Both the position numbers and the translations under genes were made by a program. Positions 1 through 5,741 of a stretch of 5,741 bases of DNA are shown here, piece by piece. The DNA comes from Gammaproteobacteria bacterium (lineage in GTDB: Bacteria > Pseudomonadota > Gammaproteobacteria > Nitrosococcales > Methylophagaceae). The stretch is taken from contig NVRG01000084.1 in assembly GCA_002400805.1 (NCBI GenBank), forward strand, positions 1-5,741. Direction: 5' to 3'. Below the pieces are notes generated by a model that searched no databases, was not told the DNA's origin, and worked only from the letters and a program-made list of their open reading frames with translations. The number at the start of each line of letters is the position of its first letter. Position 1 is the first letter of the stretch.

Positions 1-357
1 AACTCTATTGCCTTCGGTATCTATAAATTGAGCGATAAAACCGTTTTCGTTAATATCCATTTTAGGCATAATTACTTGTCCACCGGCATTTACCACCTTA
101 TTTAAGGCGATGTTTAAATCCTCTCCACCATTAAGATATACTGTTGAACCATCGGCGGAAGGTTTTAATTCTTCCATTTCTACAATTGCACCTCCAACAC
201 CACCGTTTTCCATATCGTAAGGAAACATTCCGTATTTCATATTTTTTTCAGGCATATGAAAATCGGTAATGGTTACCCCTAAAATTTCGGAATAGAATTT
301 TTTTGCTCTTTCGTAATTACTTACAGGAATCTCAAACCAGTTGATTGCATTTTTCAT
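1..357 (-). CDS. VOC/glyoxalase-superfamily protein, 3' end cut by window edge
   Basis: The frame is open from an ATG at 357 down to base 1, giving 119 residues without a stop. The protein starts MKNAINWFEIPVSNYERAKK and continues with FYSEILG, typical of the first beta-alpha-beta unit of a vicinal-oxygen-chelate fold. It ends near the window edge with FIDTEGNRV, a motif that in this family is normally followed by only a few more residues, so little is missing. The family resembles predicted lactoylglutathione-lyase-related enzymes; these single-module proteins usually act as dimers in the cytoplasm, and the substrate cannot be told from sequence. The start is preceded by an A/T-rich stretch with no Shine-Dalgarno site, as is usual in Bacteroidota. 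GC over 1-360 is 35%, and codons favour A/T endings, unlike the genes to the right. It is therefore probably of Bacteroidota (flavobacterial) origin and foreign to the rest of the window. Confidence 0.9.
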   Translation of the reverse strand, partial: MKNAINWFEIPVSNYERAKKFYSEILGVTITDFHMPEKNMKYGMFPYDMENGGVGGAIVEMEELKPSADGSTVYLNGGEDLNIALNKVVNAGGQVIMPKMDINENGFIAQFIDTEGNRV

Positions 358-390
358 TTTTAAATTGATTTTTATTGTTAAACTTAGGTA

Positions 391-398
391 CAAATTTA
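391..398 (-). promoter_or_regulatory. Bacteroidota-type -7 promoter box for the VOC gene
   Basis: On the minus strand this reads TAAATTTG, an exact match to the TAnnTTTG -7 consensus of Bacteroidota primary sigma factors. It lies 33 bases upstream of the ATG at 357, a plausible leader length. I see no clear TTG-type -33 element at the expected distance, so the box is supported by one half only. Its presence agrees with the Bacteroidota look of the gene. Confidence 0.45.
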
Positions 399-408
399 CT
401 TGAGCTTG

Positions 409-423
409 TGACAGAAGATGTCA
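409..423. repeat. Short inverted repeat upstream of the VOC gene
   Basis: TGACA (409-413) and TGTCA (419-423) form a perfect 5-base inverted repeat around a 5-base spacer. It sits 10 bases upstream of the TAAATTTG box, where the -33 element would be expected, so it could be an operator half-site pair for a dimeric regulator. Such short repeats also arise by chance. On the plus strand it is followed by G-rich sequence and a T run, but no gene on that strand would need a terminator here. Confidence 0.2.
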
Positions 424-520
424 GGGGTGTTTTTTTATTTTCAAAATAATTTTGCTAGTTAAGGGTTGCTTATATTTTTTAATATGGATTTCTGAATGTA
501 TTTTTTTATTCCTTTACTCA

Positions 521-775
521 TTACCCGTTCAACGCTCGATAAAGCGTTGAACGATCAACGCCGAGAGTGCCAGCCACTGCTGATGGCCGTTCGCCTGAAT
601 CAATCAACTTCCGAGCGTGTTTCACTTGTGCTGTTGTGAGCGTAGGAGGCCGCCCTAGACGTACCCCACGTTTTTTTGCGGCCACAAGGCCAGCTTGAGT
701 GCGTTCGACTATCAGGGAGCGTTCAAACTGCGCCATTGAGGCGAACAGGTGAAATATCAATTCACCATTGGCTGT
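521..775 (-). pseudogene. Tn3-family serine resolvase remnant (C-terminal part only)
   Basis: Residues about 711-794 of the long minus-strand frame match the end of a Tn3-type resolvase/invertase. TANGELIFHLF leads into the long dimerisation helix with the family signature FERSLIVERT, then RG...GRPP (746-754), then an HTH_7 DNA-binding domain with a recognition region SAVAGTLGVDRSTLYRAL. The N-terminal catalytic domain with the nucleophilic serine (normally about residue 10) and the active-site arginines is missing, so no recombinase activity is possible from this piece. GC of 541-720 is 56%, well above the kinase (about 43% in a sample) and the 5' flank, which suggests a third source. No Tn3 terminal repeats, res site or transposase are visible. 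It may be a transposon scar or an assembly join at a resolvase repeat. The family call is firm; the left edge is uncertain by about 10 codons. Confidence 0.8.
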
Positions 776-2905
776 TGCGATCTCTTCACTAACATCAACA
801 TCTGTTGTGCCAGTCACATAGAGTGTTGGAATAGTGGTTTGAAAATAGGCGTTCACCTTTTGCACTAAATCCAAGCCTGTTTCATTTATTAATTGATAAT
901 CAGCAACGATTTTATCTGGCTGTGTTGGTGATTGCTGTAAAACCGCCTCTAAATCTATGCCAGATGCGATAGCAGTTACTGAACAGCCCCAATGGTTTAA
1001 TAATTGTTCCATGCCAAAACGAGTATCTTCATCATCCTCGATGATCCAAATATCTTTATGCAATGACGCCAATACCTCAAGCTCCGCCAATGGTTCTTTG
1101 ACCCATTGGTCATCTCCGTAAGGTACATCAACATAAAACGTTGAGCCCTTAGTCAACTGAGATTGGAAACCAGCATTCAGGCCTAATACCTCGACGGTTT
1201 TCGCAACGATAGATAAACCTAAGCCCAAACCTTTATCTGATAACTGACGTGCTTGCGGAGCCCGATAAAACTCATCGAATAGTTTTGATTGGCTCTCATC
1301 GCTCATGCCTATGCCGGTATCAATCACACAGATACGAACTGCATCATTAATACGTCGACAACCTAATACCACTTTACCTTGCTCGGTGTACCGAATCGCA
1401 TTAGATAAAAAGTTGCGTAAAACCTGCTCTAATAAGGTTGGATCAGTAAAGACACAGACACTCGTATTGACCAGCTCTAATGTCAGATTTTTTTGTTTGG
1501 CCTGAATTTCAAACTCGATGACCAATTTTTCCAACACTGTTTGTAAATAAAAATGACGTGGCTTGGCCTGTAAACTGCCTGACTCAAGCAAGCTAATATC
1601 CAATAAGGCTCCAAACATGGCATTCATGCCATCTACGGCTTGGGTGATGCGATGCGTTAAATGCTGCTGTTCTTCTTGGCTAGTACTGTCTTTAAGCAAT
1701 CCCGTTAGCAAACCAATGGTATGCAAAGGTTGGCGTAAATCATGACTCGCTGCACGCAATAACTGTGATTTAGCAAGATTAGCGCGATCAGCTTCTGCTT
1801 TAAGCTGGCGTTGAATTTCAAGTTGTGATGTTGTGCCGGCTAAATCTGTTGATAACTCTGCCACCTGCCTGCTTTTTACTAATGAGATAAACAAATACAC
1901 CGTTAATAATAGGGTGATTAAACTCCCCGCCAGTAAACCAATATAGGGCCACCAAGTTTGGGCAGAACCGGCCAGAGACGTTTGCGGAAATACGGCCAAT
2001 AACCATTGTTTGTCTGCCACAACAATTGGAAAAGTCCAGTGGTCATTGTTGTTAAATTTAATATCATTGACGGTATTAAATTCATCACTAGAGGTATACA
2101 ACAACTGCTGACTCGAACTATTTCCATCATAAAGAGCAACGGTAAGTCGACCATTTTCTTGCTCAAAACTGCCAGAAAACAAGGCTGCAAAATCATAAAT
2201 ACCAACAACAAAACCGACTAATTTTTTCTGCCATGGCTCATCTCCAGCAAAGATTGGATGAAAAGCCTGAAACCCCAATAAATGTTGCTCCTTATTAAAA
2301 ATAGATAAGCGCTGAGTGATCGCTGTTTGCTGACTTTTTTTAGCGTTATTAATGACTTTTAACCGCGATGGAATTGACGCCATATTTAAACCAAGCGAAA
2401 GTTCGCCCACACTACTGGGAAATAAAGACCGGATAGGAAAATACTCTTGTTTACCCGATGCAGCCACTGGCAATCCATGTGCGGTAACTTCATGAATATG
2501 GAAGCTTAGATCTTCTTGTGCTTGTACATCTTTTTCAAACTGCTCTTTTTGTTCATCACTTACTCGAGCTACCCAGGCCAAACCTAAGGTACCATCATGA
2601 TATTGAGTATCTGTTGCTATAAACTCGGCCAGTTGCGCCTTGGAGATTTCGCCGGTAGTTAAATGCAACGACGCTACATTTTTCAATGAGTCTAAGGATA
2701 TATTCAGCTTGGTTTGAATTTGTTCGACTTGGGCTCGGGCATATTTTTCCGTTTCTAAATACAAGCGTTCTTTCGATATAGCTTGTAACTCAGAAAACCC
2801 AACAATTGACAAAACCAGACCCAATGCCAATACGGATAAAGCCAATACGGCTTCGAAACGAGTATTCTTTTGTGTAAACAAACGCTTTAATGTTGATGTG
2901 ACCAC
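521..2905 (-). CDS. CHASE sensor histidine kinase with receiver, fused in frame to the C-terminus of a Tn3-type resolvase
   Basis: A 794-residue frame. Start is GTG at 2905: an in-frame TAA lies two codons upstream, and AAGG sits about 13 bases upstream, a long gap. Order: TM1 about 17-38; periplasmic CHASE domain about 80-245, with GLAW, YFPI, LGLN and GF...HPIF motifs; TM2 about 318-343; a likely coiled coil 345-380; HisKA with phospho-acceptor H388 in SHDLRQPL; HATPase with N498/N502, G1 box DTGIGM (529-534), F543/F546 and G2 box GLGLGL (559-564); receiver from about 618 with acidic E623/D624/D625, phospho-acceptor D669 and switch T698. Near residues 703-717 the receiver passes into resolvase sequence that runs to the stop at 521. 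The kinase half most likely senses a periplasmic ligand and phosphorylates the divergent regulator at 3047. The frame is intact, but the 3' end is foreign, so the natural kinase gene is probably truncated here. Confidence 0.85.
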   Translation of the reverse strand: MVTSTLKRLFTQKNTRFEAVLALSVLALGLVLSIVGFSELQAISKERLYLETEKYARAQVEQIQTKLNISLDSLKNVASLHLTTGEISKAQLAEFIATDTQYHDGTLGLAWVARVSDEQKEQFEKDVQAQEDLSFHIHEVTAHGLPVAASGKQEYFPIRSLFPSSVGELSLGLNMASIPSRLKVINNAKKSQQTAITQRLSIFNKEQHLLGFQAFHPIFAGDEPWQKKLVGFVVGIYDFAALFSGSFEQENGRLTVALYDGNSSSQQLLYTSSDEFNTVNDIKFNNNDHWTFPIVVADKQWLLAVFPQTSLAGSAQTWWPYIGLLAGSLITLLLTVYLFISLVKSRQVAELSTDLAGTTSQLEIQRQLKAEADRANLAKSQLLRAASHDLRQPLHTIGLLTGLLKDSTSQEEQQHLTHRITQAVDGMNAMFGALLDISLLESGSLQAKPRHFYLQTVLEKLVIEFEIQAKQKNLTLELVNTSVCVFTDPTLLEQVLRNFLSNAIRYTEQGKVVLGCRRINDAVRICVIDTGIGMSDESQSKLFDEFYRAPQARQLSDKGLGLGLSIVAKTVEVLGLNAGFQSQLTKGSTFYVDVPYGDDQWVKEPLAELEVLASLHKDIWIIEDDEDTRFGMEQLLNHWGCSVTAIASGIDLEAVLQQSPTQPDKIVADYQLINETGLDLVQKVNAYFQTTIPTLYVTGTTDVDVSEEIATANGELIFHLFASMAQFERSLIVERTQAGLVAAKKRGVRLGRPPTLTTAQVKHARKLIDSGERPSAVAGTLGVDRSTLYRALNG
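526..553. repeat. Perfect 11-base inverted repeat at the resolvase 3' end
   Basis: CGTTCAACGCT (526-536) and AGCGTTGAACG (543-553) are exact reverse complements around a 6-base loop. It lies inside the last codons of the resolvase frame, just before the stop. An alternative weaker pairing, GTTGA (546-550) with TCAAC (555-559), competes with it. On the minus strand the stem is not directly followed by a T run, so it is not a canonical terminator. It could be a recombination-associated hairpin or simply a consequence of the coding sequence. Confidence 0.5.
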
Positions 2906-3046
2906 GTTTTAAACCGTTACCTTATATCTAGATCGCCGTAATTTTCTGAAAACAGTAAAGCACACTATTTAATGAAATACGTTATTTTTGCTGCTAGATA
3001 GCTTAATAGTTACCTTTCTACTACTAATTCCACTATTATTCATGCC
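2906..3046. promoter_or_regulatory. Divergent intergenic region between sensor kinase and response regulator
   Basis: These 141 AT-rich bases must hold promoters for both the kinase (minus) and the regulator-TRAP operon (plus). On the minus strand TTCAGA (2950-2945) and TATAAG (2926-2921) are spaced by 18 bases, matching 4/6 and 5/6 of the sigma-70 elements. However, this would start transcription only about 9 bases before the GTG and would overlap the AAGG, so it is weak. On the plus strand I find no convincing -35/-10 pair, and no good Shine-Dalgarno site precedes the ATG at 3047. An ATCTAGAT palindrome sits at 2926-2933. Shared control of both directions by the phosphorylated regulator is a reasonable inference, not shown. 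Confidence 0.4.
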
Positions 3047-3679
3047 ATGAAAATTTTGATTGCTGACGATCACGAACTCTACCGCGAGGCCTTATCGATT
3101 CTTGTTCACCGCTTAGGACAAGATACCGATGTGCATTTAGCTAGCAATTTCACCGAATTACTAAGCTTAATGCAAGCTCAAACCGGCTGGGATGCCATCT
3201 TAATTGACTTAAATATGCCTGATTTGAATTTTTATGATGGTATCAGCCAACTAACAAAAGACTACCCCGATACACCGGTTATTGTGGTGACCTCATCAGA
3301 AGATCCCAATGATACCCAACGTGCTTTAGAGGCCGGTGCTCTTGGCTATATGATCAAGTCGATGAAAAGCAACGACATGCTTAATGCCTTAAGGCTCATG
3401 TTAGAAAGTGGCATTTCTATTCATCCTGTTGCCGCTAACGACCCTCAAAATAAACCATTAACGGAAGATGATATTTTGCAGGCGTTGACCCCTCGTCAAT
3501 TCGAGGTATTGCAGCAACTGTGTGAAGGCGCGTCCAACAAACGCATCGCCTTAGATATGAACTTAAGCGAAAGCACAGTGAAGTTGCATGTGCGAGCTAT
3601 ATTAAGTGCTTTAGAAGTCTCAAACCGTACGGAAGCGGCGATCAAAGCAAAACAATTATTATCAACTGAGCTTAAATGA
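3047..3679 (+). CDS. NarL/LuxR-type response regulator
   Basis: This 210-residue protein has the standard length and layout of the NarL/FixJ family. Residues 1-120 are a receiver beginning MKILIADDHE, with acidic D7/D8, phospho-acceptor D54 (in LIDLNMPD), switch T82 and conserved K104. Residues about 145-205 are a LuxR-type helix-turn-helix, with LTPRQFEVL, SNKRIA and LSESTVKLHV. It is thus a cytoplasmic DNA-binding transcription factor activated by phosphorylation, most likely by the divergently encoded CHASE kinase. The ATG at 3047 is chosen because the first receiver strand begins directly there; no clear Shine-Dalgarno site precedes it, and another ATG at 3042 is out of frame. Its stop overlaps the next start as ATGA (3676-3679), so it is translationally coupled to the TRAP permease genes. 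It probably regulates this operon in response to the transported substrate. Confidence 0.92.
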   Translation: MKILIADDHELYREALSILVHRLGQDTDVHLASNFTELLSLMQAQTGWDAILIDLNMPDLNFYDGISQLTKDYPDTPVIVVTSSEDPNDTQRALEAGALGYMIKSMKSNDMLNALRLMLESGISIHPVAANDPQNKPLTEDDILQALTPRQFEVLQQLCEGASNKRIALDMNLSESTVKLHVRAILSALEVSNRTEAAIKAKQLLSTELK

Positions 3680-4200
3680 ACAACGTCATTTCTAAAACCA
3701 TCACTGCGATAGATACATTCACTGAGTGGAGCGGTCGCAGCGTGGCATGGCTAGTATTAGCGATGGTGTTATTGATTTGTTATGACGTTGCCATGCGTTA
3801 CTTGTTTCAACAAGGTTCTGTGGCATTACAAGAACTCGAATGGCATTTATTTGCCCTGATTTTCCTCCTCGGTTCTGCCTACACTTTAAAACACGATGAA
3901 CATGTTCGAGTTGATATTATTTATCAGAGTCAGCGAATATCCGATAAGCAACGTGCCATCATCAATATCGCCGGCATCGTTTTATTCCTATTCCCCTTTT
4001 GTATCTTGATATTAGTCTCTGCTTGGCCCTTTGTCGAAAATGCCTATTTTTATCATGAAGGTTCGCCCGATCCTGGTGGTCTGCCCTATCGCTATCTATT
4101 AAAAGCCAGCATCCTCCTCGGCTTTTTCATGTTGATAGTGCAAGGTCTCGCCGAATTACTGCGTAATATTCTCAAACTACAAGACACTGAGGCAAACTAA
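3676..4200 (+). CDS. TRAP transporter small permease subunit (DctQ type)
   Basis: A 174-residue membrane protein with four predicted transmembrane helices at about 20-40, 55-72, 96-117 and 140-162. The DctQ signature is clear: RYLF (41-44), the ELEWHLFALIFLLGSAYTL segment (53-71) and HVRVDIIY (76-83). The later EGSPDPGGLPYRYLLK segment (128-143) is typical of the subgroup annotated as mannitol/chloroaromatic or 2-oxoacid TRAP transporters. In TRAP systems this subunit pairs with the large permease in the inner membrane and helps dock the periplasmic binding protein; transport is driven by the sodium or proton gradient. It overlaps the regulator by ATGA and the large permease by TAATG. Only a weak TGAG (3667-3670) precedes the start, so translational coupling to the regulator is likely. 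The substrate is not determined. Confidence 0.92.
   Translation: MNNVISKTITAIDTFTEWSGRSVAWLVLAMVLLICYDVAMRYLFQQGSVALQELEWHLFALIFLLGSAYTLKHDEHVRVDIIYQSQRISDKQRAIINIAGIVLFLFPFCILILVSAWPFVENAYFYHEGSPDPGGLPYRYLLKASILLGFFMLIVQGLAELLRNILKLQDTEAN
4189..4192 (+). promoter_or_regulatory. Ribosome binding site for the large TRAP permease
   Basis: GAGG lies 7 bases before the ATG at 4200, inside the end of the small permease gene. It supports the start that overlaps the previous stop as TAATG. Confidence 0.6.
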
Positions 4201-5501
4201 TGGAAATTTGGGCATTAGTGATGTTTGCGGTGTTGTTTGTCTTATTATTAGCCGGCTTCCCGGTGGCTTTTACTTTGGGGGCGGTAGCTTTAGGTTTTGG
4301 CAGTGTATTTCTCGGTTTAGACTTCTTTAACCTCTTACCGCTCAGAATCTGGGGCATTATGACCAACTTCACCTTGTTGGCTGTACCCTTATTTGTATTT
4401 ATGGGCGTGGTGCTAGAAAAATCTGGCATTGCAGAAGAGTTACTTGAAACAATGGGCCAACTCTTTGGCCGAATTCGTGGTGGTTTAGCAATCTCTGTTG
4501 TGATTGTTGGTGCCTTATTAGCCGCCACCACCGGTGTAGTGGGTGCCTCTGTGGTCACCATGGCCGTGATTGCCCTACCCGTGATGTTAAAAAATGGTTA
4601 TGCGCCCAGTTTAGCCGGTGGCACGATTGCGACATCTGGCACCTTAGGACAAATTATTCCACCCAGCATTATTTTGATTTTATTGGGTGATGTTATTGGT
4701 GTGCCGGTTGGTCAACTCTTTATTGGTGCGGCTATCCCCGGCCTGATGTTAGTCATCGCCTATATTGCCTACATCGCCTTTATTGCTTGGAAAAATCCTG
4801 AACTTGCTCCAGCTATCACTATCGCTCCAGAAAATGAAGGGCAACTAGTATCTAAAGTATTCCGGAGCCTATTGCCACCATTAGCCTTAATCATCGCTGT
4901 ATTAGGTTCTATCTTCTTTGGTATTGCTTCACCAACCGAATCGGCGGCTGTTGGTGCTTTAGGCGCGATATTACTCGCGCTGCTGCATAAAAAACTAAGC
5001 TTAGATAACCTTAATAAAGCCATGCAACAAACCACACGGTTAACCAGCATGGTGTTTTTGATTTTGATTGGTGCCACTGCCTTTGGTTTAGTGTTTGTAG
5101 GCATGGGTGGTGACGATCTGATCTTTGATATCTTCAGTGACCTGCCGGGTGGCAAGTGGGGCTTCTTGATACTGAGCATGGTGCTGATTTTTGTTTTGGG
5201 TTTTTTCTTAGACTTTATCGAAATCTGTTTTATCGTGGTGCCCATCATCGCCCCTATCGCTATTCATCTGGGCCTTGATCCTCTGTGGTTTGCTTTATTA
5301 ATCGCCCTTAACCTGCAAACTTCATTTTTAACCCCACCGTTTGGCTTTTCGCTGTTTTACCTTAAAGCCAGTGCACCAGATTTAAAACTACAAGATATCT
5401 ATCGCGGTGTAGTGCCTTTTATTGTTATTCAAATCATTGTCTTAGCTTTAATTATTTGCTTCCCGTCAATCACGTTATGGTTACCTGGGCTGATGGAATA
5501 A
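4200..5501 (+). CDS. TRAP transporter large permease subunit (DctM type)
   Basis: This 433-residue, very hydrophobic protein has the normal length of DctM subunits and a dozen or so membrane segments. Family landmarks are LLAGFPVAFTLG (16-27), LLAVPLFVFMGVVLEKSG (59-76), TGVVGASVVTMAVIALPVM (111-129), the signature SGTLGQIIPPSIILILLGD (146-164), ASPTESAAVGALGA (243-256) and LQTSFLTPPFGFSLFYLKA (372-390). The SGTLGQIIPPS form again points to the mannitol/chloroaromatic/2-oxoacid branch. It forms the ion-coupled elevator-type transport domain in the inner membrane, together with the small permease just upstream. The stop is TAA at 5499-5501. No binding-protein gene precedes or directly follows it, which is unusual, since DctP is commonly in the same operon. 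The frame is complete with no disruption. Confidence 0.95.
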   Translation: MEIWALVMFAVLFVLLLAGFPVAFTLGAVALGFGSVFLGLDFFNLLPLRIWGIMTNFTLLAVPLFVFMGVVLEKSGIAEELLETMGQLFGRIRGGLAISVVIVGALLAATTGVVGASVVTMAVIALPVMLKNGYAPSLAGGTIATSGTLGQIIPPSIILILLGDVIGVPVGQLFIGAAIPGLMLVIAYIAYIAFIAWKNPELAPAITIAPENEGQLVSKVFRSLLPPLALIIAVLGSIFFGIASPTESAAVGALGAILLALLHKKLSLDNLNKAMQQTTRLTSMVFLILIGATAFGLVFVGMGGDDLIFDIFSDLPGGKWGFLILSMVLIFVLGFFLDFIEICFIVVPIIAPIAIHLGLDPLWFALLIALNLQTSFLTPPFGFSLFYLKASAPDLKLQDIYRGVVPFIVIQIIVLALIICFPSITLWLPGLME

Positions 5502-5611
5502 CGCAGTACAACCACTCATCACGCTGAATCCATTTTTGATAACCCCATCACATTTTTCCAATTTTCACTCCTAAAGGCCGCTATAAATTCGTCGATACCC
5601 TCTGTAAGCGT

Positions 5612-5617
5612 TATAAT
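5612..5617 (+). promoter_or_regulatory. TATAAT -10 box upstream of the last gene
   Basis: An exact TATAAT lies 71 bases upstream of the ATG at 5689. The best -35 at an allowed distance is TTCGTC (5588-5593, 18-base spacer), which is poor. The promoter is therefore plausible but would depend on an activator or on other upstream features. The remainder of the 5502-5688 gap shows no convincing terminator hairpin after the large permease gene, so read-through is possible. Confidence 0.4.
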
Positions 5618-5676
5618 TTTATAAAAAGGAAACATAAACTAATAGCGATCTTGATGCTCAATTAAGCGACTAGCTT

Positions 5677-5682
5677 GGGAGA
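5677..5682 (+). promoter_or_regulatory. Ribosome binding site of the last gene
   Basis: GGGAGA ends 6 bases before the ATG at 5689, an ideal Shine-Dalgarno spacing. It is the best such site in the window and supports a real gene starting there. Confidence 0.65.
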
Positions 5683-5688
5683 ATTATC

Positions 5689-5741
5689 ATGAAGACTAAT
5701 ACTGAGAAACTTGAATGGACAGAAACTAAAGACCAAATGCC
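5689..5741 (+). CDS. Start of an unrecognised gene, cut by window edge
   Basis: Only 17 complete codons are visible, reading MKTNTEKLEWTETKDQM. The segment is hydrophilic and charged, with no signal peptide or membrane segment, so it is not the start of a periplasmic TRAP binding protein, which would open with a signal sequence. The well-placed GGGAGA and a TATAAT box upstream make it a likely separate transcription unit. I do not recognise the family from this little sequence. Confidence 0.6.
   Translation, partial: MKTNTEKLEWTETKDQM

Follow-up and report, generated by a model that had tools for sequence, protein, structure and literature searches.

The 5,741-nucleotide stretch of DNA analyzed here (the window) is very probably a chimera that combines sequence from different organisms, rather than a new type of regulator. 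It contains a single open frame on the reverse strand that begins with GTG at position 2905, runs down to 521, and encodes 794 amino acids. The preliminary description of this DNA had read the frame as an unbroken series of CHASE, HisKA, HATPase, and receiver domains leading into the end of a resolvase, and Pfam bears out this reading. CHASE lies at residues 86 to 270 (E 5e-29), HisKA at 378 to 443, and HATPase_c at 488 to 596, followed by Response_reg at 619 to 711, which covers profile positions 1 to 90 of 111. The remainder is made up of Resolvase at 707 to 748 (profile positions 103 to 144 of 145) and HTH_7 at 751 to 793 (profile positions 1 to 43 of 45). In NCBIfam, the kinase part is nearest to the NahK/ErcS hybrid kinases, with scores below their cut-offs.

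The kinase part, at 756 to 2905 on the reverse strand, is a Methylophaga-type CHASE/HisKA/HATPase hybrid sensor kinase truncated within its receiver, as seen from Pfam, alignment, and DNA comparison. A protein search scored 7,998 candidates, and among the best 120 of 1,020 matches, the next after the window's own protein (P0001) is P0002 from Methylophaga sp. 42_25_T18, a protein of 734 residues with 89% identity over 90% of the query. The DNA of its locus, L001, matches the window from 756 to 5502 at 88.5% and from 5534 to 5741 at 91.8%, the two blocks together accounting for 4,955 of the 4,986 bases of 756 to 5741. The match ends inside the receiver, and the DNA comparison found no homology to L001 to the left of 756. 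This closest kinase (88% DNA identity) has a normal receiver end, continuing into GELMIKPVKSSDLYLWLSR. In an alignment of 12 sequences, the window parallels its relatives up to TGTTDVDVSEEIATANGEL, after which it switches to IFHLFASMAQFERSL, whereas P0002 runs on to MIKPVKSSDLYLWLSR and then ends, as do the other aligned relatives in like manner. A second locus from the Methylophaga order, L079, matches the window from 873 to 4408 at 71%, with a few short matches elsewhere at chance level.

The Pfam profile and the 12-sequence alignment agree that the last part of the receiver is missing and that the cut falls within the fold, as had been proposed earlier. A near-invariant lysine-proline pair at window residues 719 and 720 is replaced by H-L, and the sequence diverges after it. 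A kinase match of some kind occurs in 62 of the 63 genomes of the Methylophaga order, and 15 of the 63, including Methylophaga sp. 42_25_T18, carry a near-full-length orthologue that aligns to residue 726 or beyond of 734. These 15 orthologues are open frames of 728 to 755 residues with no internal stop. The preliminary description had favored truncation or chimera over a working fusion and had named, as evidence that would speak against such a fusion, close relatives whose kinase runs on into an ordinary receiver end where the window turns off; these 15 genomes supply such relatives and support that preference.

The tail of the frame, at 521 to 775 on the reverse strand (53% GC), is the C-terminal part of a small recombinase, comprising the end of the catalytic domain and the helix-turn-helix, as indicated by the two Pfam profiles and by its relatives. 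When its 88 residues were searched against proteins of about 108 to 343 residues, 365 of 450 candidates matched. The best 120 of these were listed and are mostly recombinases of 180 to 185 residues, with up to 94% identity, along with a few shorter fragments. The nearest full-length recombinases among the listed matches (P0121 and P0123-P0125) are 91 to 94% identical over 93 to 98% of the query, and they differ from the window in having their own N-terminal part of about 97 residues, the catalytic part, which the window does not contain. In small serine recombinases, the active-site serine belongs to this N-terminal catalytic domain. Measured against that family, the window retains the C-terminal helix-turn-helix and, of the catalytic domain, just the end at profile positions 103 to 144 of 145. 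The tail had been described as a Tn3-type resolvase, a label that did not hold up, as nothing ties it to a Tn3 transposon and the sources of its relatives call them "recombinase family protein" or "DNA invertase Pin-like." An inverted repeat of 11 bp, free of mismatches and with 6 nt in its loop, lies at 526 to 553, inside the last codons of the tail, and does not score as terminator-like.

Named close relatives of the tail among the listed matches include Planctomycetaceae, Pararhizobium, Salaquimonas, Devosiaceae, and Stappia. Genome G001, from Methylophaga, yields no match to the tail. Across the Methylophaga order, matches occur in 15 of 63 genomes, the best-scoring at 48% identity; in the phylum of G118, they occur in 56 of 296 genomes, the best-scoring at 50%, with shorter pieces reaching 63% over 46 residues; and in the phylum of G001, they occur in 143 of 398 genomes, the best-scoring at 73%. 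Among the 248 genomes of the family that contains the best genome with DNA, the match is confined to that genome (1 of 248). A tail native to a Methylophaga host or to a Bacteroidota host was considered and appears improbable, the best-scoring matches there being 48% and 50%. Among viral contigs, relatives of the recombinase are at most 68% identical (17 loci), and the sequence word at the join, described below, was not found in them.

The preliminary description had placed the junction between 740 and 810, and the join does fall there, at 756 to 776 on the reverse strand. This stretch, made up of TANGEL and its flanks, fits both parents; 17 to 18 nt of it are identical to the Methylophaga kinase, and 756 is where similarity to L001 stops. 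Here the two parents code for TANGEL(I/M) in one and the same frame, and TANGEL is invariant across the window, the Methylophaga kinase P0002, and the 14 aligned recombinases. All 14 of these, taken from the 120 listed, read TTTANGELIFHLFASMAQFERSLIVERTQAGL, as DTTTANGEL in 12 and NTTTANGEL in 2. On the kinase side, the DNA AACAGCCAATGGTGAATT is identical in the window (776 to 759, reverse strand) and in L001. The longest exact word between window 521 to 775 and the L001 kinase is 17 nt and lies at the join, compared with 8 to 11 nt in 30 shuffles and 9 nt once the join itself is excluded from the comparison. With TANGEL in an identical reading frame in the two parents, the frame stays open across the join, and this openness requires no selection. 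Alignment, tail search, and DNA match together give two unrelated parents, an abrupt breakpoint, normal receiver ends in the relatives, and an apparently shared word that is seen as DNA on the kinase side and as protein on the recombinase side.

Some observations count against a chimera. A comparison at this position took in 11 recombinase loci that are more distantly related. All of them lack the word, and the nearest, L047 (73% protein identity), uses different codons, so that the recombinase side of the match is read from protein. Another close kinase, P0003, has KSNGEL at the join position, and by our own estimate the shared stretch may accordingly be shorter, nearer 14 to 16 nt. The fusion protein P0001 is also listed, with four cluster members, on a contig of 4,160 bp, which is of a different size from the 5,741 bp of the window. 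This entry may come from another assembly of one set of reads, or it could be an independent sighting; its cluster members may be intact kinases that clustering at 90% identity merged with it.

Beyond the recombinase, the window changes character again. The gene at 1 to 357 on the reverse strand, which runs off the edge of the window, is a VOC/glyoxalase-like gene (Pfam Glyoxalase) of Bacteroidota type. Its best match among 295 Bacteroidia genomes, the class of the Chitinophagaceae MAG G002, scores 155 bits at 56% identity (matches in 100 of 295), compared with 101 bits at 48% among 398 Pseudomonadota genomes (96 of 398) and 66 bits at 43% among the 63 genomes of the Methylophaga order (7 of 63). 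A DNA comparison of 1 to 520 with nine genomes, the family of one Bacteroidia genome that matches the VOC gene well, gave a 60-nt match in that genome alone (1 of 9). Between this gene and the recombinase tail lies an AT-rich intergenic stretch, recognized by its composition, at 358 to 520. The GC content is 35% at 1 to 357, 25% at 358 to 520, 53% at 521 to 775, and 41% at 776 to 2905, and a second switch of origin is probable at or close to the right end of the AT-rich stretch, perhaps at about 500 to 520. Shifts of this kind over some 450 bp fit poorly with a single genome and would be easier to explain by an assembly path.

The apparently shared stretch and the Bacteroidota-type gene past the recombinase favor a chimeric sequence over the insertion of a mobile element. 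One parent would be the Methylophaga-like sequence of 756 to 5741, with its ordinary CHASE hybrid kinase, divergent regulator, and TRAP transporter. Its kinase stretch would have been joined to the recombinase gene of another replicon over about 17 to 20 bases that the two genes seem to have in common, and the recombinase piece would then lead into the Bacteroidota-type gene. The step responsible was likely a wrong path taken through a short-read assembly graph with small k, a path that may run through a recombinase present in several genomes of one community. Alternatively, a chimeric library molecule may have been primed by the shared stretch. In either case, we infer that the join arose in vitro or in silico rather than inside a living cell. 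Shared k-mers that link the graphs of related species and can give chimeric contigs are described in passages of a published review (PMC7299287); the same passages, which are silent on unrelated genes, state that some assemblers begin at small k (PMC7299287). A metagenomic source is presumed for the window, and by our own estimate, a metagenome with about 1e8 distinct 21-mers would be expected to contain some thousand chance collisions (5e15 pairs over 4.4e12 words).

The join could instead reflect a real rearrangement in a Methylophaga-like cell, in which a recombinase-bearing mobile replicon underwent recombination with the kinase gene at the short stretch in common and left behind a truncated kinase, probably without function, that ends in a recombinase tail. 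We consider this unlikely, although several observations agree with it. The frame is open and clean, and the fusion is also listed on the 4,160-bp contig. Related tails are also frequent on plasmids, occurring in at least 5,000 of 72,556 records, albeit with identity below 60% in 4,997 of 5,000 of them, and a relaxase-like frame, judged by eye, lies near the recombinase in L047, the nearest locus with DNA. However, a second change of origin, to the Bacteroidota-type gene, would be needed within about 450 bp, the front part of the recombinase gene is missing, and no plasmid gene was found in the five frames of the window scanned with Pfam. The 15 near-full-length orthologues in the order, none of which has an internal stop, also speak against it. 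The insertion of a mobile element, either a transposon or a plasmid, into the kinase was rejected, as no terminal inverted repeats were recognized among the repeats of 380 to 900 and plasmid matches are limited to the recombinase portion. These repeats comprise the 11-bp hairpin at 526 to 553, two inverted pairs at greater distance, and a single direct repeat of 13 nt. As DNA, 400 to 900 matched four plasmid records over 77 to 82 nt, all within the recombinase portion, and gave no match in E. coli genomes; 1 to 420 had no DNA match among plasmids, and 1 to 520 had none among phages.

It is far less probable still that the frame encodes a working membrane-bound kinase that carries a DNA-binding output of its own, in which phosphorylation of the receiver would alter dimerization through the recombinase helix and DNA binding through the helix-turn-helix. 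The corresponding account of its origin, in which one step of recombination through the shared stretch gave a real, expressed, membrane-anchored kinase whose cut receiver signals to the recombinase dimerization helix and helix-turn-helix, is likewise extremely improbable. The domain order is workable, the conserved kinase columns are retained in the window protein, and one-piece membrane regulators do exist, as described in parts of two published sources (PMC11253607, PMC10269533). Against a working fusion, the receiver is without its last part, including the near-invariant lysine-proline pair, the shared TANGEL explains the open frame with no need for selection, and the kinase already has a divergent response regulator alongside. 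Even if the join were real, the last part of the receiver and the catalytic part of the recombinase would both be missing, and the product would more likely be a truncated kinase carrying a tail than one that functions by binding DNA.

The fusion also has no second example among the proteins searched. When residues 690 to 794 were searched against kinase-length proteins, only P0001 was returned among 400 candidates, in a word-based search that a distant fusion could escape. A resolvase domain was likewise found in none of the 119 other kinase relatives listed (best 120 of 1,020 matches). The search for further proteins joining a kinase receiver to a resolvase end, which the preliminary description had proposed, therefore returned nothing besides the window's own protein, and a recurrent fusion family was ruled out among these candidates. 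The parts of the literature covered by searches for histidine kinase and serine recombinase domain fusions showed no kinase-resolvase fusion.

A known parallel in design is found in Bacteroides, whose hybrid two-component systems end in an AraC-type domain. The window has the sensor, HisKA, and HATPase_c of such systems; a complete receiver and an AraC-type output are absent, and the architecture does not recur in the relatives searched. What is shared is the idea of a membrane kinase and a DNA-binding regulator in one chain, as set out in the passages of a source that presents the Bacteroides systems as a major class of regulator (PMC11253607); parts of another source treat transmembrane regulators as one-piece membrane regulators (PMC10269533). 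Unlike these systems, the window offers one instance, with a cut receiver and a recombinase helix-turn-helix in place of the AraC-type end. If true, it would be the sole kinase with a recombinase DNA-binding end among the proteins returned (400 candidates; best 120 of 1,020 matches). As a probable chimera, it illustrates that chimeric contigs can pass into protein databases as new domain architectures, here a protein of 794 residues with six Pfam domains. It also suggests a simple test: where a short peptide common to both parent families stands in the same frame at a join, an open frame does not count as evidence of a real fusion.

Several smaller features were also noted. Within 340 to 3100, promoter-like sites (2, compared with 6.6 in shuffles) and terminator-like sites (2, compared with 2.3) show no excess, and no RNA families or tRNAs were detected in the window. 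An open frame that resembles a plasmid relaxase, again by eye, lies at 2067 to 3191 of L047, near the closest recombinase with DNA. To the right of the kinase, the forward strand carries a LuxR/NarL-type response regulator (3047 to 3679; Response_reg and GerE), divergent from the kinase, followed by the small permease DctQ (3676 to 4200) and the large permease DctM (4200 to 5501) of a TRAP transporter, both assigned by Pfam. All three stand in the same order in L001, which reads DctM, DctQ, LuxR-type regulator, and divergent kinase, so that the region 2906 to 5501 places a divergent kinase and LuxR-type regulator beside TRAP DctQM in both. The hybrid kinase of L001 thus resembles that of the window in protein sequence and gene order and differs in its complete receiver and in having no recombinase tail. 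The LuxR/NarL-type regulator is likely the cognate partner of the kinase, and the arrangement shared with L001 suggests that the pair may control the TRAP transporter.
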